In this document: positions 8,686 to 22,904 of the stretch, in pieces | How positions within the stretch are numbered: position 1 is the stretch's first letter | Layout: each line of letters starts with the position of its first letter | Source: a virus | Length of the DNA stretch: 29,168 bases | Strand: one strand, 5' to 3' | Virus record (IMG/VR): IMGVR_UViG_3300025127_000182 | Span: 1 to 29,168 of that record | Translations under genes and position numbers: made by a program | Notes under the pieces: model-generated | What the model was told of the DNA's origin: nothing | Database searches by the model: none | The model's input: the letters and a program-made list of their open reading frames with translations, nothing else

Positions 8686-8929
8686 GGACAACATTATATA
8701 TTTTTCGAAAGAACAACCCAAGATCGACAAGATCGACGCCTCTGCGGTCGAGGTCTTGTGCGACATTGCAGGCAGACATCTGGACGACGTTGTCATCCTC
8801 GGGTCTGACAAGGAGACTGGTGCTATCAAGATGATGACGACACAGGAGGATGTTGCCGACATCCTGTTCTATCTGGAGGTTGCCAAGAAGGCGATCCTAG
8901 ATCAGGGCGTCCATGATGGTGAAGTTTAA
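8678..8929 (+). CDS. Small early protein of unknown function
   Basis: 83 aa from ATG at 8678, chosen over the upstream ATG 8648 because AAGGAG (8663-8668) is well placed. Mixed alpha/beta: DNIIYFSKEQPKIDKID, LDDVVILGSDKETGAIKMM, then helix DVADILFYLEVAKKAIL. Its position directly before the helicase gene, overlapping it by 17 nt, suggests a link with replication, but no family is recognised. Confidence 0.6.
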   Translation: MTKDNIIYFSKEQPKIDKIDASAVEVLCDIAGRHLDDVVILGSDKETGAIKMMTTQEDVADILFYLEVAKKAILDQGVHDGEV

Positions 8930-10364
8930 CTACCGTACGGAGCCTTATGCACACCAGCGTAAGGCTCTGGAACGCTCGTACGACAAGCGCAACTACGCTT
9001 ACTTTATGGAGATGGGGTGTGGCAAGTCGAAGGTTCTTATTGACAACATCGTCTGGCTCTACGAGCAGGGCCGCATTGACACGGCGGTTATTGTTGCGCC
9101 GAAAGGTGTTTACCGCAACTGGGAAACGGCGGAGATTCCCACCCACTTCCCGACCGACGTTCCGCACGAGATTTATGTATGGAATCCGAGTCCCAACAAG
9201 TCGCAAGCCGAGCGCCTCAAGTCTGGCATTCAAGAGCGTGGCGTCCTCCGCATCCTTCTGGCAAACGTGGAAGGGTTCGCAACAAAAAAGCTGCCCGCAT
9301 TTGTGGGTGCGTTCACACAGGGCAGCAATTTCCTACTTGCTGTTGATGAGTCCACTACAATCAAGAACCCCAAGGCCAAGCGCACTAAGACGCTGGTCGT
9401 CTTCGGTAAAAAGGCTGCATACAAACGCATCCTCACCGGCTCCCCTGTCACAAAATCCCCGATGGACCTTTACGCCCAGTGTGGATTCATGGACAAGAAA
9501 CTTCTTGGATTCGATTCGTACTACTCGTTCCAAGGACGATACGCCGTCACCAAGACGCAACGCATGGGCGCGCATAGCTTCCTTCAGATCGTGGGCTATC
9601 GGAACCTTGAAGAACTATCGGAGAAACTTGACACGTTTTCCTATCGAGTAACCAAGGAAGAAGCACTAGACCTGCCCGACAAGGTGTATGTCACCCGAGA
9701 GGTGAGCGTCACCGACGAGCAGCGGCAGCACTACCTGACATTGAAGAAGCAAGCCATCGCCATGTTCGACAACGGCGACCTGGTCACGGCGCCGGCTGTG
9801 ATCACACAACTGCTGCGCTTGCAGCAGGTGCTGTGCGGCCACATCAGAACGGACGACGGAGAGTTGATCGAGATTCCATCGAAGCGTGTCGCTGCGTTGA
9901 TGGAAACCATCGACGAGATGACAGGCAAGGTTATCGTCTGGTCACGGTTCCGCTACGACATCAAGAAGATCGAGGCCGAGATCAAGATGGTTCATGGACC
10001 GGGGTCCGTGGTCACATATTTTGGGGACACGACAGATGAACAACGCCAGCAGGCGATCAAGGACTTTCAGTTCGGGGATGCTCGATTCTTCGTGGCGAAC
10101 CCACAGACCGCAGGCTTTGGCCTGACGCTGACGGCTGCAACAAACGTGATCTATTATGCTAACGACTTCGACTTGGCGACTCGGATGCAGTCCGAGGACC
10201 GGTGTCACCGGATCGGGCAGAGCAACCGAGTCACCTATGTTGACCTAATTACTCCGGCTTCGATTGATCAGCGGATTGTTCGTGCTCTTCGGGACAAGAT
10301 TGATCTGTCGGCGAAGGCGTTGGGCGAAGAAGCTCGGAAATGGTTGGAGCTTTCTCCCCGCTGA
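8913..10364 (+). CDS. SNF2-type superfamily 2 helicase/ATPase
   Basis: 483 aa. Motifs in order: Q-type P-Y-A-H-Q (11-15), Walker A MEMGCGKS (32-39), VVAPKG-like Ia (59-64), DESTTIKN (145-152) as the Walker B variant DE-S in place of DEAH, TGSP (175-178), then in lobe 2 KVIVWSRFR, NPQTAGFGLTLTAATNVIYY and DRCHRIGQ. This is the SNF2/Rad54-like core without extra domains, common in podophage replication modules, where it probably remodels DNA or protein-DNA complexes. The C-terminal coding end (10249-10364) is overlapped by an antisense nuclease gene. The start could be 8913 or 8916; the ribosome-binding site is weak. Confidence 0.9.
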   Translation: MMVKFNYRTEPYAHQRKALERSYDKRNYAYFMEMGCGKSKVLIDNIVWLYEQGRIDTAVIVAPKGVYRNWETAEIPTHFPTDVPHEIYVWNPSPNKSQAERLKSGIQERGVLRILLANVEGFATKKLPAFVGAFTQGSNFLLAVDESTTIKNPKAKRTKTLVVFGKKAAYKRILTGSPVTKSPMDLYAQCGFMDKKLLGFDSYYSFQGRYAVTKTQRMGAHSFLQIVGYRNLEELSEKLDTFSYRVTKEEALDLPDKVYVTREVSVTDEQRQHYLTLKKQAIAMFDNGDLVTAPAVITQLLRLQQVLCGHIRTDDGELIEIPSKRVAALMETIDEMTGKVIVWSRFRYDIKKIEAEIKMVHGPGSVVTYFGDTTDEQRQQAIKDFQFGDARFFVANPQTAGFGLTLTAATNVIYYANDFDLATRMQSEDRCHRIGQSNRVTYVDLITPASIDQRIVRALRDKIDLSAKALGEEARKWLELSPR

Positions 10365-10701
10365 AGTGACGGTTCTGTGCATTTGTCTTGGACACTGGAT
10401 CGTTGGAGAGTTGATGTGTGTACAAGCCGACGGCACCAGTTTCGAGGTCAACATACAACAGACGCACACCGAGCTTGCGTTGAATGTCTGTCAGCTTGCG
10501 GGCGATTGATGTGCCGGATTTGCGAAAGGCATGGGTCTTCACATCAAACAGATGTGTCTTGCCGTTTGGCGAGATGGCTACGAGGTCCACTGGCCCTTGT
10601 GCCATCACTGGCTGGTAGACATAGCAGTCTTGAGACAGCAACCACTCCGCTGCAAGCAGTTCTGATCGCTGACCATCTCGATTTTTCTGGTGTGGTCGCA
10701 T
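10249..10701 (-). CDS. Antisense PD-(D/E)XK nuclease, Hjc-like
   Basis: 150 aa on the strand opposite to the replication operon. G10-Q-R-S-E14-L-L-A-A-E, G-P-V-D39-L-V and D53-V-K55-T are the E ... D ... (D/E)-x-K active site of the PD-(D/E)XK superfamily in Holliday-resolvase-like spacing; the usual E-x-K is D-V-K here. The C-terminus is a polar, Pro/Ser/Glu-rich tail. The last 116 nt are antisense to the helicase gene. ATG at 10701 is favoured over more upstream starts because it begins right before the nuclease core and leaves a 54-bp divergent gap to the ribbon-helix-helix gene. It may be independently regulated cargo. Confidence 0.72.
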   Translation of the reverse strand: MRPHQKNRDGQRSELLAAEWLLSQDCYVYQPVMAQGPVDLVAISPNGKTHLFDVKTHAFRKSGTSIARKLTDIQRKLGVRLLYVDLETGAVGLYTHQLSNDPVSKTNAQNRHFSGEKAPTISELLRPTPSPTDQSCPEEHEQSADQSKPE

Positions 10702-10708
10702 AATGTTG

Positions 10709-10736
10709 TTGACTTTCCTGTTGGGTAGATTACAGT
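10709..10736 (+). promoter_or_regulatory. Predicted sigma70 promoter for the RHH gene
   Basis: TTGACT (10709-10714), 16-bp spacer, TACAGT (10731-10736). It shares TGTTGTTGACT and the 16-bp spacer with the 3494 promoter. It could supply the downstream replication genes as well. Confidence 0.65.
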
Positions 10737-10748
10737 GAGTGACTGTAA
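10730..10748. promoter_or_regulatory. Palindromic operator over the -10 box
   Basis: A perfect inverted repeat TTACAGT-GAGTG-ACTGTAA, 7-bp arms and a 5-bp spacer, covers the -10 hexamer and predicted start point. Half-sites are 10 bp apart, as in the 3497-3521 sites. It lies between the divergent nuclease and ribbon-helix-helix genes and is the natural autoregulatory site of the latter. Confidence 0.65.
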
Positions 10749-10755
10749 CAGACAC

Positions 10756-10926
10756 ATGCCAAGGAGTAAACAGGTGGATTTGAATAGGTGGAGAACTGTC
10801 GCTGTCCCGATTGAGTTGTACAAAATTCTCAAGGACACGGCTGAACAAAATGACCGTAGTGTCAGCAAACAGGTGGCCTTCATCTTGAAAAGATTTTTTG
10901 AATCTGAAGGCGTGAAAATTGGTTGA
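10756..10926 (+). CDS. Ribbon-helix-helix (Arc/CopG-like) regulator
   Basis: 56 aa. A beta strand (RWRTVAVPIE), helix (LYKILKDTAEQND), R-S-V-S-K turn and second helix (QVAFILKRFFES) match the Arc/CopG fold, which binds palindromes as a dimer of dimers through the strand. The start is uncertain. ATG at 10756 would have a leader of only about 13 nt. GTG at 10774 is 7 nt after AAGGAG and would still keep the whole fold. It probably represses its own promoter through 10730-10748 and perhaps the divergent nuclease gene and the main early promoter. Confidence 0.75.
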   Translation: MPRSKQVDLNRWRTVAVPIELYKILKDTAEQNDRSVSKQVAFILKRFFESEGVKIG

Positions 10927-10957
10927 TCGTGGACCGTGGTTCATGTATCACCCTCCA

Positions 10958-11033: not shown

Positions 11034-11600
11034 ATGAGCGATGTGTTTTCGCTTTTTGACGAGGCGGTCGATGCCAACAAGTTCGACACCGTGGATGAGG
11101 GTAAAGGTTCCCGCCTTTCGACACTCATCCGCCACTCCCTTGAGATCGACGAGGAGATCTCGCAAGTCGAGAAGTACCTCAAGGATCTGAAATTCAAGAA
11201 ACGCAAAGTGAATGAAGAGGACATCCCCGCTCTGATGACAGAGATGGGTATGGAAAGTGTTACCGTGGACGGTAACAAGATTGCTCTTCGTCAATTCGTC
11301 CATGCCCGCATCCCGGATGACAGGCGTGACGATGCGTATGCGTGGCTCCGTTCCATCGGTGAAGGTGACATCATCAAGAATGATGTGACGTTGTCCTTCA
11401 GTGCAGGTCAAGACAACATGGCCGGTGCTGTCGTGGAGGACTTACGCCAGCAGTATGGACTGGACCCCGCACAGAAAACCCACATCCATCCGCAGACGCT
11501 GAAGGCGTGGGTTCGTAACCGGATTGAGTCGGGCAAGGATATCGACTTCGACCAGTTCGGTGTGTTTGTAGGAACTGAAGCTAAAATTACGAGGACGTAG
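11034..11600 (+). CDS. Conserved phage replication-module protein
   Basis: 188 aa, GAAAGGAG upstream. The N-terminal half is a charged coiled-coil-like helix (SLEIDEEISQVEKYLKDLKF) leading to DIPALMTEMGMESVTVDG, then ARIPDDRRDDAYAWLRSIG, DIIKNDVTLSF and a C-terminus HPQTLKAWVRNRIESGKDI. This series (E-x-x-P-A-L-M-x-E-x-G, A-x-x-W-L, I-K-N, H-P-x-T-L-K-A-x-V) is characteristic of a protein encoded beside SSB and primase in many podophages and myophages, without an established function. It is possibly a replication accessory protein. It is followed 4 nt later by the SSB-like gene. Confidence 0.65.
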   Translation: MSDVFSLFDEAVDANKFDTVDEGKGSRLSTLIRHSLEIDEEISQVEKYLKDLKFKKRKVNEEDIPALMTEMGMESVTVDGNKIALRQFVHARIPDDRRDDAYAWLRSIGEGDIIKNDVTLSFSAGQDNMAGAVVEDLRQQYGLDPAQKTHIHPQTLKAWVRNRIESGKDIDFDQFGVFVGTEAKITRT

Positions 11601-11604
11601 AACG

Positions 11605-12411
11605 ATGGCTGGAAATCAAGCTGTAGCGAAAAAGGCGGAGTCGCTACCCGCCAACCTTATGGACGATCTGTTCGCTGGAGCAGGTCAGGGTATGGAAAAT
11701 ATTACTGCCGAAGATATGCAGATTCCGTTCATGCGGATCCTGCAACCTCTCTCCCCGCAACTGATCAAGACGGACTCGAAGTTTATCAAGGGTGCGTCTG
11801 CTGGTGACATCTTCAACACTGTGACCGGGCAGTATTGGGAAGGCGACGAGGGCGTGACGATTATCCCGTGCGCCTACGAGATGAAGTTTCTGGAGTTCCA
11901 ACTGCGTGAGGCCGGTGGTGGCTTCCTTGGCGAGATCGATCCGAACAGTCCTGACATTCGTCAGGCGAATCGGGTGGGTGCCAATGAAATGCTGCCGTCG
12001 GGTAACGAGTTGGTCCGTGCTGCCCAGTTCTTGGTCGTGGCTATTGGCGAAGACGGTGCAACCCAGCAGATGATTCTCGATATGAAGAAGACCCAGATGA
12101 AGGTTGCCAAGCAGTGGAACACTCGCCGTGCGGGTATGAAGCTGATGCACCCAGAGAAGGGTCTGTTCACTCCGCCCATGTGGGCAACTGTGTGGAAGCT
12201 GAAGACCGTGCAGGAGAGCAACGACAAGGGTTCGTGGTTCAACTACTCGATCTCCCAGCTTGATATCAAGGATGTGCCGTCGGCAGTGGTGCAGGAGTGT
12301 AAGGGTCTGTACGAGCAGTTTCGGAAGGGCGAAATCAAAACGTCCGCTGGCACTGCCGAAGAGATGAACGCTGCTTCGTCGTCCCGGCAGGACGACGAAA
12401 TCCCATTCTAA
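11605..12411 (+). CDS. Single-stranded DNA-binding-like protein
   Basis: 268 aa. The C-terminus ends in D-D-E-I-P-F, almost the E. coli SSB tip D-D-D-I-P-F that recruits replication partners. The body includes QIPFMRILQPLSPQL, ITAEDMQ, a beta-rich core with VTGQYWEGDEGVTIIPC and a helical WNTRRAGMKL segment. It resembles the phage SSB-like proteins encoded between a coiled-coil protein and the primase in marine podophages. It would coat single-stranded DNA at the fork. It is not the classical OB-fold SSB by sequence, so the call rests on the tail, length and context. Confidence 0.7.
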   Translation: MAGNQAVAKKAESLPANLMDDLFAGAGQGMENITAEDMQIPFMRILQPLSPQLIKTDSKFIKGASAGDIFNTVTGQYWEGDEGVTIIPCAYEMKFLEFQLREAGGGFLGEIDPNSPDIRQANRVGANEMLPSGNELVRAAQFLVVAIGEDGATQQMILDMKKTQMKVAKQWNTRRAGMKLMHPEKGLFTPPMWATVWKLKTVQESNDKGSWFNYSISQLDIKDVPSAVVQECKGLYEQFRKGEIKTSAGTAEEMNAASSSRQDDEIPF

Positions 12412-12433
12412 CGGTACGCACAATACGGTGTTT

Positions 12434-12514
12434 CAGGGGAGCATCTGGGAGAGACTGGGCGTATCGCAGGTCGGCATTCTCCTCGGCTTGAGAATCACGT
12501 CTCTTCATCCCCTG
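12434..12514 (+). ncRNA. Structured RNA leader upstream of the primase gene
   Basis: Three nested helices: CAGGGGA (12434-12440) with 12508-12514, GGAGAGAC (12448-12455) with 12499-12506 (one G-U), and ATTCTC (12476-12481) with GAGAAT (12490-12495), loop 8 nt. They fill most of the 133-bp gap between SSB and primase genes, the widest gap in the replication operon. There is no T-run, so this is more likely a regulatory leader or processing element than a terminator. I match it to no known riboswitch. Confidence 0.4.
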
Positions 12515-12544
12515 CCCTACCCTACCCAACCATAGGGGATAGTT

Positions 12545-14080
12545 ATGACCTTGGACGAAAGGTTCATGGCCGTTTTTGAGGGTTTCAAATCGGCACATGG
12601 ACAGACAATTATTTCAGAGGAGCGCCGGGCCGGCAAACAGAAGGCACAATCTCGCACAGTCCGCACTCCAATTACCCTCGAACTTATTCGATCCCACCTG
12701 GACGGTGTCAAGGGTGTCGGATCGATCCCGATTAACGAAGACAACAAATGTAAGTTTGGTGTCCTCGACATTGACGAGTATCCACTGGACCTGCCGGCCA
12801 TTGATCGGCGGCTGCGTGACCTCGAGATCCCAGCCGTGGTCTGTCGCTCGAAGTCTGGTGGGGCACACATCTATTTCTTCTTCACGGAGTTCATGAGCGC
12901 AGGGGAGTTCCGTGACAAGGCTTCGGAGATCGCCGCCTATGTTGGGTATGGCAGGTGTGAAATTTTTCCGAAGCAGGAGCAAGTTCTGCACGAACGTGGT
13001 GACGTTGGTAACTTTATCAACCTGCCGTACTTCGATGCAGAACAAACCCTGCGCCATGCAGTCCTCGAGGATGGATCTGCCGCCACCCTCGAGGAGTTCC
13101 TTGATCTTGCCGACAGCCGTGCCATCACTCCGGAGGGTTTTGTGTCACTTACCTTCGGGGTTGTCGAAGACGAGTTCAAGGAATGGGCGCCCTGCCTGAA
13201 CTGTATGTTCGGGCAGGGCATTCCCGAAGGCACCCGCAACACGGTGATGTTCGCCGCTGCGGTTGGATGCAAGAAGGAACAGCCCGAGACATGGAAGCAA
13301 CGACTCGAAGAGATCAACCAGCGGTTTGCCACCCCACCGCTACCAGCATCCGAGATCGTTACGATCCAAAACCAACACGAGAAAAAAGAATACGGATTCC
13401 CGTGCGATCAGGAGCCACTGAAGAGCTTCTGTAACAAGACGCTGTGCAAGACCAAGAAGTTTGGCATCGGCGTCACAAGCATGTCTCTGGACGTTACAGG
13501 GCTGTGTGTCGTGAAGTCCGAGCCACCGGTCTGGTTCTGCGACGTGGGCGGTCGTCGTGTCGAGTTGACAACCGACGACCTGCAAACACCCCAGCGTTTC
13601 CAGAAAGCCTGCATGGAACAGATTCACGTCATGCCTCCCATGATGAAGATGCAGGACTGGCAGACCATCGTCACCATGTTAATGGAAGACATGAACCACA
13701 TCGATGTGCCGCACGAACTGACATACAAGGGGCAGTTCAACGAGCTTGTCGAAGCGTATTGCGATGGTCGGATCCAAGCACAGTCAGCGGAAGAGATCGC
13801 CCTTGGCAAGCCGTACACCGACGAGGACGAGGGGCTAACGTACTTCAAGCTCGAAGCGTTGATGAAGTTCCTGCGTAACCAGAAGTTCGACAGCTACAGT
13901 CGTGGACAGATTCAGGAGCGCCTGAAGGAACTGAACAACGGTGGACAGGCCAACGGGCACAAGCGGTTCAAGACTACGACAGGGGAACAGAAACAGATTC
14001 GTGTGTGGTGGGTGCCGTCGAAGCATCAAGAGATCGACGTGCCGCCCATTGATGTAGGTGGAGAGGAGATTCCGTTTTGA
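12545..14080 (+). CDS. Archaeo-eukaryotic-type primase (AEP), SSB-like tail
   Basis: 511 aa. Catalytic core: L-D75-I-D77 metal-binding pair in FGVLDIDEYP, S-K-S-G-G-A-H108-I-Y-F, and EIFPKQ (139-144) followed by GNFINLPYF. These are the AEP primase/PrimPol motifs. A helical Cys-bearing region follows: C217-x2-C220, GTRN (229-232) and C287-x8-C296-x4-C301 ending FGIG, suggesting a zinc or Fe-S domain like that of primase large subunits. Residues about 430-495 resemble a winged helix (ALMKFLRNQ, RGQIQERLKEL, VWWVP). The chain ends G-G-E-E-I-P-F, an SSB-tip-like tail. It makes primers for the polymerase at 15865. The start is the ATG at 12545, where no strong Shine-Dalgarno sequence is visible. 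Confidence 0.85.
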   Translation: MTLDERFMAVFEGFKSAHGQTIISEERRAGKQKAQSRTVRTPITLELIRSHLDGVKGVGSIPINEDNKCKFGVLDIDEYPLDLPAIDRRLRDLEIPAVVCRSKSGGAHIYFFFTEFMSAGEFRDKASEIAAYVGYGRCEIFPKQEQVLHERGDVGNFINLPYFDAEQTLRHAVLEDGSAATLEEFLDLADSRAITPEGFVSLTFGVVEDEFKEWAPCLNCMFGQGIPEGTRNTVMFAAAVGCKKEQPETWKQRLEEINQRFATPPLPASEIVTIQNQHEKKEYGFPCDQEPLKSFCNKTLCKTKKFGIGVTSMSLDVTGLCVVKSEPPVWFCDVGGRRVELTTDDLQTPQRFQKACMEQIHVMPPMMKMQDWQTIVTMLMEDMNHIDVPHELTYKGQFNELVEAYCDGRIQAQSAEEIALGKPYTDEDEGLTYFKLEALMKFLRNQKFDSYSRGQIQERLKELNNGGQANGHKRFKTTTGEQKQIRVWWVPSKHQEIDVPPIDVGGEEIPF

Positions 14081-15594
14081 CGGCAACAACGATATTCGGA
14101 CCCCCAGGCACGGGCAAGACCACACGGCTGATCAACATTGTCCAGCAGGAACTGGACCGTGGAACGCCGCCCGACAAGATTGCTTTCATGTCCTTCAGCA
14201 AGAAGGCAGCGCAAGAGGCGCGTGATCGTGCAGCCGAGAAGCTGGGTATCAACGAACAGCAGATGATGTGGTTTCGTACCCTGCACTCCTTCGCCTTCAA
14301 CCAACTTAGTCTTAGCGGACAAAAAGTTTTGAAGGGTGCGGACTACAACAAGATCGGCGAACTCGTGGGACTGCCGATGAAAACATCTGCGTCCACTAGC
14401 ATGGATGACGGCATCTTGTTCCCTGTCGGCACAGCAATCGGAGATAAATACCACACGATGATTCAGCTTGCTCGTGTCACGGGCAGGCACCTTGATGAAG
14501 TCTTCAGTGCCACGGCTGACTGGCGGTTGAATTACACGCAGTTGAAACTCGTGGAGCAGACCATCAATGATTACAAGAAGACGATGGACAAGATCGACTT
14601 CGTGGACATGATTGAACAGTTTGTGTTGCAGGGTGACTGTCCACTATTTGATGTCCTTATTGTGGACGAAGCACAAGACCTGGCTCCGCTACAGTGGCGC
14701 ATGATCCACGAGGTGATGAAGCCGTGCGCCAAGCGGGTGTACTTTGCCGGCGATGACGACCAGTGCATCTTCTCATGGATGGGTGTGGACGTTCGGCAAT
14801 TCCTTAACGCATCTGAAGACAAGATGGTTCTCGGCACATCATACCGTCTCCCGTCGGAGATACACTCCTTGGCTGACGACACCATAAAACAGTTGTCGTT
14901 TCGGCAGGAAAAAACTTGGTTCCCGGCTCGACAAGGTGGCGCCGTGGTGTGGCATCATGATATCCTTGATGTGGACCTGCGATCTGGTGAGTGGTTAATT
15001 CTTGCCCGTACGAACAACATTGCTAACAGAGTTGCAAGCACTCTCAAAGAACATGGATACTTGTTCTGGCGGGACGGTTCGTGGTCCATCTCGCAAAATG
15101 TTCTAAACGGAATTGAGGTGTGGTTGCGGTTATGCAAATTACAGTTTGTGTCACTACAAGATTTGAAGACCTTATCAAAAGTCATCCGGCCATCGGCCAT
15201 CACCAGGTCTGGCAAACGCAAACTTACAAACCTAGACCCCGAAGTCACTTACAGCCTCACCGATTTACAGAACCTGTGCGACCTGAAGGTGACTGCCGAA
15301 ACACCGTGGTACGAAGCGATCCGCGTGTCGGAGCAGGAGCGGATCTACATTACTTCTGTACGGCGGATGGGCGAGTCTATCTTGTCGGGCAAGCCGAGGA
15401 TACGGATCTCGACGATCCACAAGGCGAAAGGTGGAGAGGCAGACAACGTCCTCCTCCTGCTTGAATCCAGTCCTGTAATAACCCGAGACGGAGATTTTGA
15501 AGGCGAGAGACGTGTCTTCTATGTAGGCATGACTCGTGCGCGTAAAGAACTGCACCTTGTGCAGTGTTATGGTAACGATAGGTTTGAGTTATGA
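14077..15594 (+). CDS. UvrD/Rep-like superfamily 1 helicase, TTG start
   Basis: 505 aa starting at TTG 14077 in a TTGA overlap with the primase stop, GAGAGGAG upstream. Motifs: Walker A GPPGTGKTT (8-16), Ia FMSFSKKAAQEA, Ic TLHSFAF, II VDEAQD (196-201), III AGDDDQCIFSW (224-234), IV GTSYRLP (253-259), V ISTIHKAKGGEADNV, VI YVGMTRARKEL. This is a full SF1A DNA helicase core lacking the long 1B/2B insertions of UvrD, likely the replicative or repair unwinding motor that works with the primase. It overlaps the next gene by 4 nt. Confidence 0.93.
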   Translation: MTATTIFGPPGTGKTTRLINIVQQELDRGTPPDKIAFMSFSKKAAQEARDRAAEKLGINEQQMMWFRTLHSFAFNQLSLSGQKVLKGADYNKIGELVGLPMKTSASTSMDDGILFPVGTAIGDKYHTMIQLARVTGRHLDEVFSATADWRLNYTQLKLVEQTINDYKKTMDKIDFVDMIEQFVLQGDCPLFDVLIVDEAQDLAPLQWRMIHEVMKPCAKRVYFAGDDDQCIFSWMGVDVRQFLNASEDKMVLGTSYRLPSEIHSLADDTIKQLSFRQEKTWFPARQGGAVVWHHDILDVDLRSGEWLILARTNNIANRVASTLKEHGYLFWRDGSWSISQNVLNGIEVWLRLCKLQFVSLQDLKTLSKVIRPSAITRSGKRKLTNLDPEVTYSLTDLQNLCDLKVTAETPWYEAIRVSEQERIYITSVRRMGESILSGKPRIRISTIHKAKGGEADNVLLLLESSPVITRDGDFEGERRVFYVGMTRARKELHLVQCYGNDRFEL

Positions 15595-15875
15595 AAAATA
15601 GACAGCACTTTCTTGAAGAAGCGGAAAAGTTAATCAATGGTCCAAGGGCCGAAGACTATGGGCCGGCGTTGATAAACCATGAGCGTATAGCTACCATCTG
15701 GAACGTGCTGCTCCGCACCAAGCTGCTGGACAAGATCACACCGACAGAAGTGGTTGCCATGATGGTTGGATTAAAGTTGGCTCGTCTTGCCGAGGACATG
15801 CACAAGGATGACTCGTGGGTAGACATCATTGGCTACGCTGCGTTGGGTGGTGAAATTTCGAACGATGAAAGCTGA
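15591..15875 (+). CDS. DUF6378-like small helical protein
   Basis: 94 aa. G-P-R-A-E-D-Y-G (17-24), H-E-R-I-A-x-I-W (30-37) and M-M-V-G-L-K-L-A-R-L (57-66) with D-S-W-V-D-I-I-G-Y-A-A-L (73-84) are the hallmarks of DUF6378, common in phage nucleotide and replication modules. The all-helical acidic pattern recalls MazG-like NTP pyrophosphohydrolases, so a nucleotide-pool role is possible but unproven. It starts 4 nt inside the helicase gene and overlaps the polymerase start by 11 nt. Confidence 0.75.
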   Translation: MKNRQHFLEEAEKLINGPRAEDYGPALINHERIATIWNVLLRTKLLDKITPTEVVAMMVGLKLARLAEDMHKDDSWVDIIGYAALGGEISNDES

Positions 15876-17739
15876 TCTGTTTGACATCGAGGAAGAATGG
15901 TATCCGCCGTCATCCCTGCCGGACCTGACGAACTGTGCCCGTATTTCTATTGACCTTGAAACCTGTGACCCAAACCTCCTGACACTGGGTCCAGGTTGGT
16001 GTCGGAATGATGGGTACGTCATCGGTTTCGCAGTGGCTGCTGGTGACTTCGTCGGATACTTTCCGATCCGCCATCAAGGTGGCGGCAACATGCCAGAGAA
16101 AGCCGTAATCAATTGGTTGAAGAAACAGCTTGCCACACCGCACATCGAGAAGATCATGCACAACGCCATGTACGATTTGGGTTGGCTGCGGTGGGCCGGC
16201 ATCGAGGTGCAAGGCAAGATCATCGACACGATGGTAGCGGCACCGCTGCTGAACGAGAACCGTCGTTACTACAACTTGAACAGTCTAGCTGGCGAGTACC
16301 TCGGCGAGTGGAAGAACGAGAAGATGTTGAAGGCTGCGGCATCGATGTACGGTGTCGATCCGAAAGGGGAAATGTGGAAGCTACACGCCTCGTTCGTGGG
16401 CAAGTATGCGGAGCAGGACGCTGCTGTTACACTGCGCCTGTGGGACCGGCTACGGGCTGACATAGACAAGGATGAAGTCACCAGCATCTTCGAGTTGGAG
16501 ACATCACTGATCCCTCTGTTACTCGACATGAAAACGAGAGGTGTGCGTGTCGATGTGGACAAGGCATACGATGTGCAAAAGGAACTGAAGCGCCGCGAGG
16601 ATGTGTTACTTAAAGAAGTAAAGGAAGAGACTGGCGTCGTTGTGGAGCCGTGGGCCGCTGCATCTGTAGCAAAGGCGTTCGACGCCCTTGGGTTGAACTA
16701 CAACAGGACAAAAAAGTCGAATGCGCCAGCCTTTACAAAAGCATTTCTTGCGAACCACACTCACCCGGTGGCGCAGAAGATTGTACGCCTTCGAGAGTTT
16801 AACAAGGCAAACACGACATTTATTGAAACCATTCTTGAACATTCGCATAACGGTCGTATCCATTGTGATTTTCACCCTCTTCGTTCAGATGAAGGGGGCA
16901 CAGTTACCGGACGATTTTCTTCGTCCAACCCGAACCTCCAGCAGATCCCGGCACGTGACCCTGAAATCAAGAAGATGATCCGGGGCCTCTTTATCCCGGA
17001 GGATGGAGAAAAGTGGGGCAGTTTCGACTACGCATCACAGGAGCCACGGTGGCTGGCACACTATTGCGCTACACTGACCGGCGCTCGGCGGGATTCACAG
17101 ATTGATGACGTGGTGAGAATGTACCACGAAGGCAATGCTGACTTCCACCAAATGGTTGCGGACATGGCAGGTGTGTCACGCAAGGAAGCCAAGACTGTGA
17201 ACCTCGGCATTATGTACGGCATGGGCCGGAAGAAGTTGGCCGGCACCCTCGACATCACCGAGGAGGATGCCAAGGGATTGCTGAACAAGTATCACGACAA
17301 GGTGCCGTTCGTGAAAGGCATGGCCGATCTGGCGATGAACCAAGCGATGGACAAGGGTGTGATCCGCACGTGGCTTGGCCGCAAGTGCCGCTTCGATACA
17401 TGGGAGCCGAGGTCTTATGGATACCACCGTGCGCTGCCGCTTGAAGAGGCGGTCAAGGAGTACGGAGGCCGGGGCATGATCCGCCGTGCGTTCACGTACA
17501 AGGCACTGAACCGCCTGATTCAAGGATCAAGCGCGGACCAGACCAAGAAGGCGATGTTGACGTGTTATGAAGAAGGACTGGTGCCAATGCTGACAGTTCA
17601 CGACGAATTGTGTTTTAGCGTGAACTCTCGTGAACAATCCGACAAAATTGTAGATATTATGAAAAATTGTGTACCAGACTTGAATGTGCCGTTCGACGTG
17701 GATGCCGAGCTTGGCGACAACTGGGGAGAAGTTGGATGA
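15865..17739 (+). CDS. polA: Family A DNA polymerase with 3'-5' exonuclease, Leu762-type
   Basis: 624 aa from ATG 15865. Exonuclease: D30-L-E32-T, H-N100-A-M-Y-D104, Y181-A-E-Q-D185, complete. Polymerase: TGRFSSSNPNLQQIP, motif A F-D388-Y-A-S-Q-E393, motif B R439-x3-K443-x3-L447-x3-Y451-G, motif C V-H579-D580-E581. There is no 5'-3' exonuclease domain and no inserted DnaJ domain. The E. coli Phe762 equivalent is Leu447. Leu at this site is frequent in virioplankton polymerases and has been linked with slower or temperate lifestyles, whereas Tyr is typical of T7-like lytic phages. Insertions between motifs B and C make it slightly long. It is the replicative enzyme of the operon. Confidence 0.95.
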   Translation: MKADLFDIEEEWYPPSSLPDLTNCARISIDLETCDPNLLTLGPGWCRNDGYVIGFAVAAGDFVGYFPIRHQGGGNMPEKAVINWLKKQLATPHIEKIMHNAMYDLGWLRWAGIEVQGKIIDTMVAAPLLNENRRYYNLNSLAGEYLGEWKNEKMLKAAASMYGVDPKGEMWKLHASFVGKYAEQDAAVTLRLWDRLRADIDKDEVTSIFELETSLIPLLLDMKTRGVRVDVDKAYDVQKELKRREDVLLKEVKEETGVVVEPWAAASVAKAFDALGLNYNRTKKSNAPAFTKAFLANHTHPVAQKIVRLREFNKANTTFIETILEHSHNGRIHCDFHPLRSDEGGTVTGRFSSSNPNLQQIPARDPEIKKMIRGLFIPEDGEKWGSFDYASQEPRWLAHYCATLTGARRDSQIDDVVRMYHEGNADFHQMVADMAGVSRKEAKTVNLGIMYGMGRKKLAGTLDITEEDAKGLLNKYHDKVPFVKGMADLAMNQAMDKGVIRTWLGRKCRFDTWEPRSYGYHRALPLEEAVKEYGGRGMIRRAFTYKALNRLIQGSSADQTKKAMLTCYEEGLVPMLTVHDELCFSVNSREQSDKIVDIMKNCVPDLNVPFDVDAELGDNWGEVG

Positions 17740-18416: not shown

Positions 18417-21400
18417 TTATTGTATCCTTCCTAGCCTTTCGAACAACTCCCTGGTCCGTGGATCGAGGATCGTGTCGATGGCTGTTCTTGGTGCAGGTTG
18501 TGATTGTACGGGAGCCGTCGAGGGGAGATTACTGACGGCTCCCGTGCCCGTTGCTGCCGGTGGAGGAGTCGGCGCTACGGGTGGTTGTGGTTGTATATCT
18601 GTGGATGCAGTCGGCGCTGGTAGTTGGACCGGGGTCCGTGGACGGGTGCCCAAGGGCTGTTCACCTTCTTCCAGCACACCACTCAATCGGCGATTACGGT
18701 ACTCCTTGGCAAGCCGATTCAGTTCCGTGACGATAGGTCTACGGTCGAAGAAGCGGCCAGTGGTATCTTGGAATCGTTGAATGTCCAGGAAGATGTCGTT
18801 GTCAATATTCAACGGCTCGAACTTGCCTTGAGCAATCGTATCAAAGTTCGACAGCTTTAGCTCCTTCGCAGCCTTCTTGATCTCTTGCTCTGTCATGCCC
18901 AGCTTCTTCATGTTCTGGATCATGCGATAGGCGCGGTTGTGGACCTTGAACTTGCGCTCATTCTCTTGGATGTAGTTATCGCGGATGATCTGCAACATAT
19001 CTTCCGGAGATCTAATGGTGCCAGTAAACGCGCGTAGCTGCTTGTTAAAGTTCTGCTGCGGCTGACGTGCAGCCTTGTTGTGTTCGAGCACACGATACAG
19101 CATGCTCCGCTTGGCATCGATGCGAACCTCGCCGACGCCGGTGATCAAGCGAAGAATCTCCTCGCCGATTTGTCTGCGGTTGCCGCGAGTGTCCAATCCT
19201 TCTTCTGCAAGGAAGGAAGTAAGAAGACGACTAGGCACGGCGAACTCAACGTCGCCCGTAAGCGGGGACACCTTGGCGGGAGAACCAAGGTACTGTTCAA
19301 TGATGCCGGGGGTGAAAGCCTCCAGCACATGGGTGATCGCCTTGCCTGCCCTTTCGGGGATAGTGTCTTCTGACTTGTAGATTCGTGCTCCGGTTTTCAT
19401 CTCACCACCACGAACTGTCAGGTCAAGAAGACGTTCAGTGATGATGGATTCCTCGGCGAACGGAGACAGCATTTCTCCCAGCACTTGGCCGGCCATGTTG
19501 AAGACGATTGTCGAGGCATCCTGGTCCAGTGCCTTGCCGTCCTGGATAGCATTAAGCAGTCCCTCTACTGGGCGTCTTAGATAGTCGTACGGATTGATGT
19601 AGCTGTAATCGATGTAGCCGGTGATTCGACCCTTATCGTCCACAGATGTCGGAATCAACGTACTGTTCTGACTCCACGGCGGAACGATTTCTCGCAGCGC
19701 CTCGATCATATCTTCAGTAACGCCGGTGATCATCATTGATGTTTCTTGCACGGCCTCGCCAGCCAGCCCTGCGGTGGCGGCAAAACCCATGATCCGGCGA
19801 CCGCCGATGTCACTCATGCGTTGCCCGGCCAACATTTTCTGCTGCGCCTTTTGCACAGCATCTCCGGGGTTTATCATCCCGGCTTCTCTGCGAGAGGTTA
19901 GGGTGCGAAGCTCCGAGGCTGCTTCTTCCTGCATCTGCTTGCCACGCTGGAACTCATCGATGCCGCGTTGGATTGTGTTAAGAGAAGTTCGAATAATCTC
20001 TGCGGGGAAGGCGATGAAGTTACCAACCGGCATTTTACGGAGATCTTGAATGAATTGCGGCACACGTTCGTAGTTGGGGACTGTGTTCTTGACAATGTCT
20101 GCTGAGTATTCGTTCAGACTCTTGAAGCCCAGACTCTTGGCATAATCGTCGGCAGCAACAACATCTCCACTAAACATGTTGATGATCTTGCTGCGCTCGA
20201 AGTCAAAGTTGTAGATCTTCCAGATGTCGTCGCCACCTTGATACAGATCTCGTGCTCGTTTATCGAAACTATCAAACCACTGTCTGCCTAGACTCCGTGC
20301 CCGCTTCTGACCGAGGTTGACACCTAGTTCATCGATGTCGCCGGTGCCACGCTGGATACCCTCTTCAATCAGGCGCTCGAGTTCACGAAGCTGTGACTGG
20401 GTGCCGACTACACCCAGTTCCTGCAACTCACGGAAGAATGCTGCCCGCTCATCGGGTGCCGTCTTCATGATGTTGTCGAGGACGAGGTTCACAGACTCCC
20501 ACACATTTGCACCACGCCCTACGTTGCCTTGCGCCGCAGCAAATAGGGCAGCAGACGTGACGTTTCTGATCTGCGTGATGGGGCTGTATACCGTCTTGAC
20601 CTTCTGCGCGAAACCCTTGCCCAGAAGAAACCCTCTGATGGCGTAGTCGATATAATTGTGTCGTTGCTTGTTCGCACGAGTCAGGTCGTTGAATACAGGG
20701 TTACGAGCAAAAATTCGATCCTTCAGTTGTGCATTAGTATCCTCGGCAGCACGAGACATGAGTGAGCCAAAGCCGGGATCCAGAAGTTCTGTGTAGTTGG
20801 CATTGCGGAATTCTCTAGGCAGAGCCATGTATGCCTCACCGTCGATGATATCTTCGCCACCGACACGAGCCTTACTTCCGTCTTCTAAAGTTTCTATCCT
20901 GCCTCGATTTGCACGAAGAAACTTATTGAATCTGTCTACCGCAAGCGTTTCAGCAAGATCTCCGACAGATCGAACGTAAGCCTCGGCTGGATCTTGAATC
21001 TCGCCGAGCAGCCGGAGCAGTTCCTCATCCTCCTTGCGAGGCTTGAAAATATTACGGTTGAATGTTTGCGCTGCCTTGTCCGCAAGTGCTCTGGGGTCAC
21101 GTCCGCGAGTCCCTCTACCACTCCGGTATTTGTTGACAAAACCGTCGATGATCTCATTCTTAACAATCGTTGTGATAGGCGCGTCGTCTGCTAGTGGATC
21201 CAACCGTTCAGCGCGTTCGGGAAGATCATTGTAGAGACGACGAGCAGCTTCGGGGTTCGCGGTAAGCCACTGGAAAACATCTCGCCTATTACGCCTGTAC
21301 TCCGCAGATTTAAGATACTCTTCGGGGTCGTCAAAAATTCTGTATTTACGACGAAGATACTTGCCCATGTTGCCTTTAATTTCTTCAAGTATCTCTTGAT

Positions 21401-22904
21401 TTACGTTGAGTAGCTCCCCCTCGTTTTTTACTCGTGTCGCAAAGTCTGATGCCAGAATTTGCCCAGACATGTCGTCAATGTGCTTACGCATTTTCAATGC
21501 ACCCGCGCGTGTGAACTCGGGCAGCGCACGAAGCAAATCATCTACATTGTTTGGATCGAAGGCTCGTCCCTCCACAACAGCCAAACGCGCTGCTTGTTCG
21601 AGGAAACTGTTGTCGCGGGTCAAGAAGCCGTAAATGCTGTTGAAGACTTCGATCTTGGTAAGCTCGGTGTCGTCGCCGAGTCGAACTCGCTCAGCGCCGG
21701 CAAAAACTTTGTCAATCTCTTTCTCGAGTTTGCGAATGGTGGACGCTGCTAGGTTGGCATTGCTTTCAATGAAACCCTGGATCTTGGCCCGTTCTTCCGC
21801 AGCCTCCTGCGAAAGATTCCCGCGAAACCGCAGCCGCGCCTTTACACCCTCGTATGCATCAGCAACGGTGGTCTCCGGGTTGGCACGACCGAATGACAGA
21901 AGTCTTACCGGTGCTTGAGCTTCACCCACATACTTCGCGAGTTCCGAGTTGCCGATAGAGTCCGCCAGTTTAACCAGCGTATCTCTGGTGGTTACCGCAG
22001 CAGGCCCAACAACATACCTGTTGGTGGCGTCCATCAGTGGACCACCGACCAGTGCAGTGGTGCTTAACAGATACGGGAAGGCCATCGCCAGCGCACCTGC
22101 CTCGCCTCCTACCATCAACTTGTTATAGGCACGACGCCCCGCTTCCATGCGTCCGCTGAGTCCGATGTCTTCTTGGGTTAGTGTGGGACCGCCACCAACG
22201 AAGTCACCAATCGTGGTCATCCCATCCGTTGCCACAACAGAATCGACCAACAACGCAGCACCTGCCTGCTGTCCACGCAGCTTGGCTTCGTCTGCTCGTG
22301 TCAAGCGAGGACGACCAAGCCTGTCTGTGCGAGATCGTAAAGTGGCGCCACGTCCCTTGCGGACAACCTGGTTCAACCTGCCGAGTTTAGTAGGCTTGGC
22401 AATCACGGCTCCGCCGAAGCCAGGGATCAAGCGTGGTACTTTCAAACCTGTGGATACAGCCTTTGCAGCCAGTCCGCCGGGCAGCACAAACTGACCCACA
22501 ATATCACCGGCAGCACCTGCAAAACCTACGGGATCAAGGCCCATATTCCTGCGGAAATCATCACCAAATTGAGAGATAGCACGTGTTGTGTTGGTGTCGA
22601 ACACGGCATCGACAACGATGCCTCCGACCTCTGCCACACCCTGAATGGCTTTAGTGCCACCGGACAAAAGACCTTCACCAAATTCTTGAAGCGCACCCTC
22701 GGACTCCGTCTCCGGCTCGATCACTCGATCCCGGCTGACGACCTTGGTCTGTGGTTCGTCGTCCGACTCCCGTGCTTCAGGCTCGTCTTTTTGCTGGGCA
22801 AGTTGCTTGCGGACGGCTTCGATCAGATCTTCTTCACTTGCGTCGTCCGGGCCTTGGACTCTGTATACCGTGCCGTCCGGGCCTTGGACTCTATAAACAG
22901 CCAT
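18417..22904 (-). CDS. Giant internal virion / DNA ejection protein
   Basis: 1495 aa. The N-terminus carries a tandem decapeptide (V-Y-R-V-Q-G-P-D-G-T, V-Y-R-V-Q-G-P-D-D-A) then SEEDLIEAVRKQLA, the G-P-D-G ... (D/E)-E-x-(I/L) motif that often opens internal virion proteins. Several Gly/Ala-rich hydrophobic segments (residues about 75-100, 125-165, 275-295 and near 1055) suit membrane insertion during ejection. Long charged helices follow and a Pro-rich C-terminus (PVQLPAPTAST region) ends in a helix. Size and position between the 437-aa protein and lysozyme fit a podovirus ejection protein or tape-measure equivalent. No muramidase or protease motif is recognised. AGGGGG precedes the ATG. Confidence 0.7.
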   Translation of the reverse strand: MAVYRVQGPDGTVYRVQGPDDASEEDLIEAVRKQLAQQKDEPEARESDDEPQTKVVSRDRVIEPETESEGALQEFGEGLLSGGTKAIQGVAEVGGIVVDAVFDTNTTRAISQFGDDFRRNMGLDPVGFAGAAGDIVGQFVLPGGLAAKAVSTGLKVPRLIPGFGGAVIAKPTKLGRLNQVVRKGRGATLRSRTDRLGRPRLTRADEAKLRGQQAGAALLVDSVVATDGMTTIGDFVGGGPTLTQEDIGLSGRMEAGRRAYNKLMVGGEAGALAMAFPYLLSTTALVGGPLMDATNRYVVGPAAVTTRDTLVKLADSIGNSELAKYVGEAQAPVRLLSFGRANPETTVADAYEGVKARLRFRGNLSQEAAEERAKIQGFIESNANLAASTIRKLEKEIDKVFAGAERVRLGDDTELTKIEVFNSIYGFLTRDNSFLEQAARLAVVEGRAFDPNNVDDLLRALPEFTRAGALKMRKHIDDMSGQILASDFATRVKNEGELLNVNQEILEEIKGNMGKYLRRKYRIFDDPEEYLKSAEYRRNRRDVFQWLTANPEAARRLYNDLPERAERLDPLADDAPITTIVKNEIIDGFVNKYRSGRGTRGRDPRALADKAAQTFNRNIFKPRKEDEELLRLLGEIQDPAEAYVRSVGDLAETLAVDRFNKFLRANRGRIETLEDGSKARVGGEDIIDGEAYMALPREFRNANYTELLDPGFGSLMSRAAEDTNAQLKDRIFARNPVFNDLTRANKQRHNYIDYAIRGFLLGKGFAQKVKTVYSPITQIRNVTSAALFAAAQGNVGRGANVWESVNLVLDNIMKTAPDERAAFFRELQELGVVGTQSQLRELERLIEEGIQRGTGDIDELGVNLGQKRARSLGRQWFDSFDKRARDLYQGGDDIWKIYNFDFERSKIINMFSGDVVAADDYAKSLGFKSLNEYSADIVKNTVPNYERVPQFIQDLRKMPVGNFIAFPAEIIRTSLNTIQRGIDEFQRGKQMQEEAASELRTLTSRREAGMINPGDAVQKAQQKMLAGQRMSDIGGRRIMGFAATAGLAGEAVQETSMMITGVTEDMIEALREIVPPWSQNSTLIPTSVDDKGRITGYIDYSYINPYDYLRRPVEGLLNAIQDGKALDQDASTIVFNMAGQVLGEMLSPFAEESIITERLLDLTVRGGEMKTGARIYKSEDTIPERAGKAITHVLEAFTPGIIEQYLGSPAKVSPLTGDVEFAVPSRLLTSFLAEEGLDTRGNRRQIGEEILRLITGVGEVRIDAKRSMLYRVLEHNKAARQPQQNFNKQLRAFTGTIRSPEDMLQIIRDNYIQENERKFKVHNRAYRMIQNMKKLGMTEQEIKKAAKELKLSNFDTIAQGKFEPLNIDNDIFLDIQRFQDTTGRFFDRRPIVTELNRLAKEYRNRRLSGVLEEGEQPLGTRPRTPVQLPAPTASTDIQPQPPVAPTPPPAATGTGAVSNLPSTAPVQSQPAPRTAIDTILDPRTRELFERLGRIQ
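22839..22898 (-). repeat. Tandem 30-bp duplication in the giant virion gene
   Basis: Two consecutive 30-nt units encode the decapeptides V-Y-R-V-Q-G-P-D-G-T and V-Y-R-V-Q-G-P-D-D-A. They share AGAGTCCAAGGCCCGGACG exactly. This is a recent in-frame duplication right after the start codon. Confidence 0.9.

Follow-up and report, generated by a model that had tools for sequence, protein, structure and literature searches.

Results

Replication module of the window

The window, i.e. the whole virus record of 29,168 bases that was analysed, carries a replication module with the gene order SNF2 helicase, gp33-like protein, SSB, primase, SF1 helicase, DUF6378 and family A DNA polymerase (PolA). Pfam identified the SNF2-type helicase (positions 8913 to 10364, plus strand), the gp33-like protein (DUF7307; 11034 to 11600, plus strand), which lies just 5' of the SSB gene, and the UvrD-like SF1 helicase (14077 to 15594, plus strand). 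PolA (15829 to 17739, plus strand) matches PF00476 at 1e-60 and is the protein that we favour below as putative receptor. The gp33-like gene was present in 341 of the 414 sequences collected and is directly 5' of the SSB gene in most relatives. Two ORFs on the minus strand had no Pfam match, one of 231 aa (10249 to 10944) opposite to the replication module and overlapping the end of the SNF2 gene, and one of 1495 aa (18417 to 22904).

The SSB-like protein (P0001, 268 aa; 11605 to 12411, plus strand) belongs to the Pam3_Gp34 family PF23977 (4.4e-61, 207 bits, above the gathering cut-off of 27) and to phrog_2402, both of them families of unknown function. The more divergent SSBs that were checked also matched PF23977 (12 of 12). 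The AF2 model of P0001 (pLDDT 84.7) has a confident core, and residues 254 to 268 are disordered with pLDDT below 50. Foldseek of this model against the PDB gave no match with E below 0.001, and PDB sequence searches with the SSB family gave no meaningful match. VIA returned structural matches to phiC31 RDF (Z 7.2), RB69 gp32 (Z 6.4) and T4 gp32 (Z 6.3), the best of them below a Z of 8; the remaining matches were mostly OB-fold ssDNA binders, and the T4 gp32-Dda complex 8gme was among the structural matches. The family having no assigned function, the name SSB was initially a guess, and we tentatively regard P0001 as a probable SSB whose predicted fold may be a gp32-like OB fold. Products annotated as 'primase' (Acinetobacter phage Bhz9, XRX12378.1; L161, 13056-13808) and 'ATP-binding protein' (WJZ48107.1; L157, 7179-7955) belong to the SSB-like family, the former by PF23977, and are likely misannotated.

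The AEP-type primase (P0002, 511 aa; 12545 to 14080, plus strand) matches the AEP-TOTE primase family PF22548 (2.1e-17, 64 bits, above the gathering cut-off of 27) and phrog_21866. The Pfam domains in P0002 were AEP and, weakly, PriCT_1 only. A primase profile matched PDB entries 7nqd and 7nqf (E 1e-12) over profile positions 38-199 only; these structures, which we take to be CRISPR-associated Prim-Pol, are sequence homologues of the AEP domain. In the AF2 model (pLDDT 91.3) the tail at residues 492-511 has no secondary structure, and its last two blocks have pLDDT of 66 and 59.

C-terminal tips of SSB and primase

The initial annotation had claimed that SSB and primase share an E-I-P-F end, and the translations bear this out. 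The SSB ends SSSRQDDEIPF and the primase ends PIDVGGEEIPF, each followed by the stop codon. The SSB tip DDEIPF (GAC GAC GAA ATC CCA TTC) lies at 12391 to 12408 and the primase tip GEEIPF (GGA GAG GAG ATT CCG TTT) at 14060 to 14077, both on the plus strand. Both proteins have a disordered tail ending in acidic residues and I/V-P-F, as in bacterial SSB-Ct (DDEIPF in the SSB, EEIPF in the primase). Four frames of the six-frame translation of the window end in PF before a stop, and the two besides SSB and primase do not look like genes.

The shared residues are written in different codons (GAA ATC CCA TTC in the SSB versus GAG ATT CCG TTT in the primase), and a copied DNA repeat was therefore rejected as the source of the match. 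Across loci, the tips use every one of the four Pro and two Phe codons, and these vary freely, which argues that selection acts on the protein. Constraint by overlap of the primase stop with the helicase start was also rejected, since codon choice differs and varies and no such overlap is possible in 170 of 321 loci.

Sampling of homologues

Scans of viral contigs gave 98 primase and 137 SSB relatives, and 80 of each were kept; a viral-contig scan with the Kokobel2 primase gave no match. The set was widened with annotated phages and four more productive scans to 414 sequences, window included. Loci whose SSB or primase frame ran off the contig, primases shorter than 420 aa and duplicates were dropped before counting. 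This left 324 distinct loci, from which 154 representatives were chosen. Some members of the SSB seed profile (L160-L162) had been picked by position, and Pfam confirmed them afterwards.

Conservation and matched change of the tips

Both genes are complete in 101 distinct window-like loci. There the -PF end is found in 99 SSBs and 100 primases; two SSBs end DVLF instead (L132 and L154) and one primase ends EVPL (L115). Both proteins end in -PF in 198 of the 324 loci, and -PF is the commonest end of each. Counted from the C-terminus over the 154 representatives, the entropy of the SSB was 1.6 bits at -1, 2.2 at -2 and 2.9-3.8 further in; that of the primase was 2.1 bits at -1, 2.7 at -2 and then 3.0-4.0.

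The last two residues of the primase are those of the SSB of the same phage in 273 of 381 loci, versus 86 of 33,720 other ORFs, and chance is therefore excluded. The control proteins gave 0/340 for gp33, 0/263 for SNF2, 0/215 for PolA and 1/349 for SF1 (together 1/1,167). An alignment of homologues, which the initial annotation had proposed as a check, showed that the tips largely co-vary, with some discordant clades. The tips vary by clade and largely match within a phage: SSB/primase ends are xPF/xPF, GNY/DNY, QPY/SPY, GEF/SEF, EVF/AVF, IPFA/PPFV, VPFE/VPFA and WED/WEE. NY/NY occurs in the L351 clade and, separately on the tree, in L406; PY/PY, the E[FYM] clade and VF/VF (L345) are matched changes at other separate places. 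Twice, both proteins carry one extra residue after the Phe (L158, IPFA/PPFV; L326, VPFE/VPFA). In the E[FYM] clade the SSB gene does not adjoin the primase gene, and adjacency therefore does not explain the match. One group has primase tails without acidic character (e.g. QKKRSPF) that still end in -SPF. Two unrelated DNA-copying proteins in a large group of bacterial viruses have the same end, and this end tends to change in both together.

Statistical tests of co-variation

Identical last two residues were found in 75 of the 154 representatives, versus 38.7 expected by shuffling, and in 6 of the 65 distinct tip combinations, versus 1.7 expected (p 0.004). Pagel tests of dependent versus independent change were run on a FastTree tree of both cores. 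They gave LR 22.5 and p 1.6e-4 for P at -2, p 5e-4 for Y at -1, p 3e-5 for F at -1, p 1.8e-4 for a PF end and p 0.017 for a hydrophobic end. Independent pairs, computed with Treekit, were underpowered, both for the PF end (3.5 with, 0.0 against and 11.4 unchanged of 15; median p 0.125) and for a last F (8 with, 4 against; p 0.39).

As a control that keeps relatedness, the tip of the other protein was ranked by mutual information among all variable columns of the replication proteins. With 55 taxa and six proteins (2,031 columns), position -1 with -1 ranked 3 and 1 and position -2 with -2 ranked 2 and 4; position -3 ranked 254-902. With 114 taxa and four proteins (1,234 columns), same-position ranks were 5 and 31 at -1 and 2 and 44 at -2. 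By regression, the primase tip predicted the SSB tip after six core distances (p 0.001).

Discordant clades and possible loss of tips

In Nanhaivirus the SSB ends DEVPF, DEIPF or DDIPF beside a primase ending GEA, GKD or GQD, and in pelagiphages an SSB ending VPF stands beside a primase ending GKFRT; in both, the primase has no tip, and the same holds for part of the DnaE-polymerase clade. Other groups are mismatched, with SSB versus primase ends of APF versus DMM/DML, VPY versus SLI and DVM versus EDF. According to the initial annotation, tip loss at random in primases whose SSB keeps the tip would refute the proposed use of one pocket. Such primases do occur, but by clade and not at random. 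A primase -PF without an SSB -PF was seen in 7 representatives and the reverse in 24, from which we infer that the SSB tip is the more constrained and the primase a second user.

In L353, L362, L366 and L411 (and L386) the SSB is without the C-terminal tail or the tip, and the primase has a degenerate end (SPWL, PAFK, AAFE, APYK, PPFVK). These loci may represent a joint loss of tips.

Small proteins with the same tip

In the DSL-LC04-like group, small ORFs (42-62 aa) with EEAPF or EPAPF at their ends lie downstream of PolA. A microprotein profile built without the tip found 11 members, all of them ending in F (10 in -APF and 1 in -ALF), and 4 of 6 members of a second microprotein family end in -PF. 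Small ORFs with an acidic end matching the SSB of the same phage numbered 16 on the plus strand and 0 on the minus strand. Thirteen of the 16 belong to the two microprotein families; the others are one 72-aa ORF (L212) and one 107-aa ORF in two loci of one contig (L019, L095). Among 84 of the 85 annotated CDS ends of DSL-LC04 (a CDS across the record start was left out), -PF was found only in SSB, primase and WJZ48098.1.

Tip divergence and the replication proteins

Tip divergence was compared with core distances by multiple regression. With 55 taxa and six proteins PolA was significant (b 0.96-1.24, p 0.002), and so it was with 65 taxa and five proteins (p 0.001-0.002); the primase core also contributed. 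As a single predictor PolA was the best on both the plain (r 0.62) and the log scale (r 0.64), and on the rank scale it was about level with the primase core (0.60 vs 0.59). Collinearity of the core distances limits the PolA signal, with VIF of 4-7 for PolA and up to 16 for others, and among close pairs the signal vanishes (r 0.08, n 551; gp33 0.15). SF1 and SNF2 gave no independent signal in the six- and five-protein regressions, and their coefficients were negative once PolA and primase were included; a weak SF1 term (p 0.035) appeared in one four-protein model. In the 114-taxon set, which lacks PolA, gp33 was the best predictor of the SSB tip (p 0.001).

Among the columns in the top 2% of co-variation with 55 taxa, the primase core supplied 12-21 versus about 8 expected, also for the SSB tip. 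It was over-represented more than PolA in three of the four 55-taxon tests; in that of primase tip position -2, PolA led with 17 vs 15. In the 114-taxon set, SF1 columns 332-345 recur among the top co-varying columns.

PolA is present in all 59 primase -PF loci for which 6.5 kb downstream is available. Having PolA does not by itself give a primase tip, and most of the E[FYM] clade also carries PolA. Naming the receptor by gene presence alone was rejected because SF1 is in every tabulated locus. PolA was searched in 24 records and was absent from 12; 10 of these 12, phage LBL3 included, carry a DnaE-type polymerase instead. A search of 12 records for a family B polymerase found none. In L272, L277, L278, L285, L288, L289, L296, L318 and L330 the SSB-primase-SF1 module goes with a DnaE-type polymerase in place of PolA, which is a polymerase swap inside one lineage. 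No polymerase was seen in 25 of the 154 representatives. Primases end PF, PY or NY in 70 of 121 PolA representatives versus 0 of 8 with DnaE (Fisher p 0.0015); this link of primase tip with polymerase type comes mostly from one clade and is only suggestive.

Discussion

A proposed shared docking pocket

The reading that we favour, at somewhat below an even chance, is that SSB and primase tips dock in one shared pocket, probably phage-encoded and preferably on PolA. The tip would be a C-terminal docking peptide on the flexible tail of the SSB and of the AEP primase, and the co-variation suggests that the last two residues and free carboxylate of both tails fit the same pocket. Since one pocket would read both tips, both proteins would follow when it changes, and matched changes across clades may arise in this way. 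The pocket most likely sits on a phage-encoded replisome protein, with the family A polymerase as best candidate. The lagging-strand SSB and the primase may take turns at one polymerase site, and this could couple priming, primer hand-over and coating of ssDNA, much as the acidic tails of T7 gp2.5 and gp4 do on gp5. The microproteins with the same tip in one phage group may be competitors or adaptors.

A wider form of this proposal, which we think rather doubtful, is a clade-specific docking code. One replisome pocket, on PolA or its substitute, would read the two-residue tip of at least three unrelated proteins (SSB, AEP primase and microproteins); the tip would change jointly in its carriers (PF, PY, NY, EF, PFx) whenever the pocket does, and the microproteins would be dedicated competitors tuning priming.

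The initial annotation had suggested that the primase competes for, or is recruited to, the pocket used by the SSB, for example on the SF1 or SNF2 helicase or a host protein. Tip co-variation fits one pocket; the part naming SF1 or SNF2 as its holder was not supported, as divergence tracks PolA and the primase core, though SF1 gave one weak term. A receptor on SF1 (as for T4 Dda with gp32), SNF2 or gp33 is in our judgement unlikely, even with SF1 in all tabulated loci, the gp32-Dda complex among the structural matches, the recurring SF1 columns and the prediction of the SSB tip by gp33; against the two helicases stand their negative coefficients. Equally unlikely to us is host mimicry, whereby both tips would copy bacterial SSB-Ct (DDDIPF) to hold host chi, PriA, ExoI, DnaG and others. 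The tip DDEIPF is one residue off DDDIPF, which the consulted part of PMC5872125 describes as highly conserved in SSB, and -PF is the commonest end of both phage proteins. Host SSB-binding proteins may be the receptors where the tip is xPF, but they are a poor fit for phages in which both tips are NY or EF or in which a residue follows the Phe. Tips of Providencia, Acinetobacter and Klebsiella phages are -SEF, -GEF or -EDM in the SSB and -AEF or -SEF in the primase (ends read on the phage proteins). The two lineages that extend both proteins past the Phe also argue against mimicry: the DnaG pocket is thought, in the portion of the source consulted, to form a salt bridge with the terminal Phe carboxylate, the extra residue would misfit a pocket of this type, and this favours a phage protein as the receptor there.

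The pocket could also lie on the primase core, where the primase's own tip would be seated and displaced by the SSB tip, like the SSB-Ct site of DnaG. The excess of primase core columns, found also for the SSB tip, and the SSB-Ct pocket of DnaG (in the part of PMC5872125 consulted) favour this; the unstructured primase tail of the AF2 model and the SSB tip kept in clades with a tip-less primase, which means that such a pocket can do without an own tip, speak against it. On balance we hold it to be improbable. Coincidence of two generic acidic tails with shared ancestry would agree with the non-significant independent pairs; it is very hard to reconcile with the position-specific match among 2,031 columns, the Pagel tests, the parallel extra-residue and NY changes and the non-acidic tails that still end -SPF, and we regard it as highly improbable.

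Comparison with known systems

The tails of T7 gp2.5 and gp4 both end in Phe. Like gp2.5 and gp4 acting on gp5, the present system has acidic tails on an SSB and a priming protein, and a family A polymerase encoded by the phage. In T7 gp4 a DnaG-type domain is joined to an SF4 helicase, whereas the AEP primase here stands alone and has no helicase domain; also unlike in T7, the tip is a specific motif, mostly xPF and variable by clade, for which docking is proposed. The SSB/primase tips probably work like the T7 tails by analogy, but the system is not a member of that type, its primase being a different, stand-alone enzyme. In the parts of the sources consulted, gp4 acidic tails bind basic patches on gp5 (PMC8472574, PMC12593628), the gp2.5 tail is implicated with polymerase and primase-helicase (PMC5686142), and T4 gp32 acts via an acidic C-terminal domain (PMC5892887). 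T4 gp32/Dda may resemble the present case in having an OB-fold SSB, on a weak structural match, and its SSB-SF1 helicase complex has been solved (8gme); unlike gp32, the SSB family here has no PDB sequence match.

Bacterial SSB-Ct is the same type of tip on an SSB. According to the part of PMC5872125 consulted, it has many partners, primase included, and the E. coli SSB-Ct (DDDIPF) binds a pocket of DnaG in which Arg452 is thought to pair with the terminal Phe carboxylate. The bacterial primase carries the pocket, whereas the primase here carries the tip. Among the titles and abstract openings covered by the literature searches, none described a primase that carries an SSB-like tip.

If the shared pocket is real, the shared-tail logic of T7 would hold as a general plan across a phage group that is abundant, mostly uncultured and equipped with AEP primases, and a short peptide code could co-evolve across unrelated proteins. 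Pam3_Gp34, a Pfam family of unknown function, would likely gain a role. Peptides for a direct experimental search for the receptor are already at hand in the clade-matched tips, and the matched changes, the swaps of polymerase and the losses of tails offer natural mutants for studying how a phage couples priming to synthesis.
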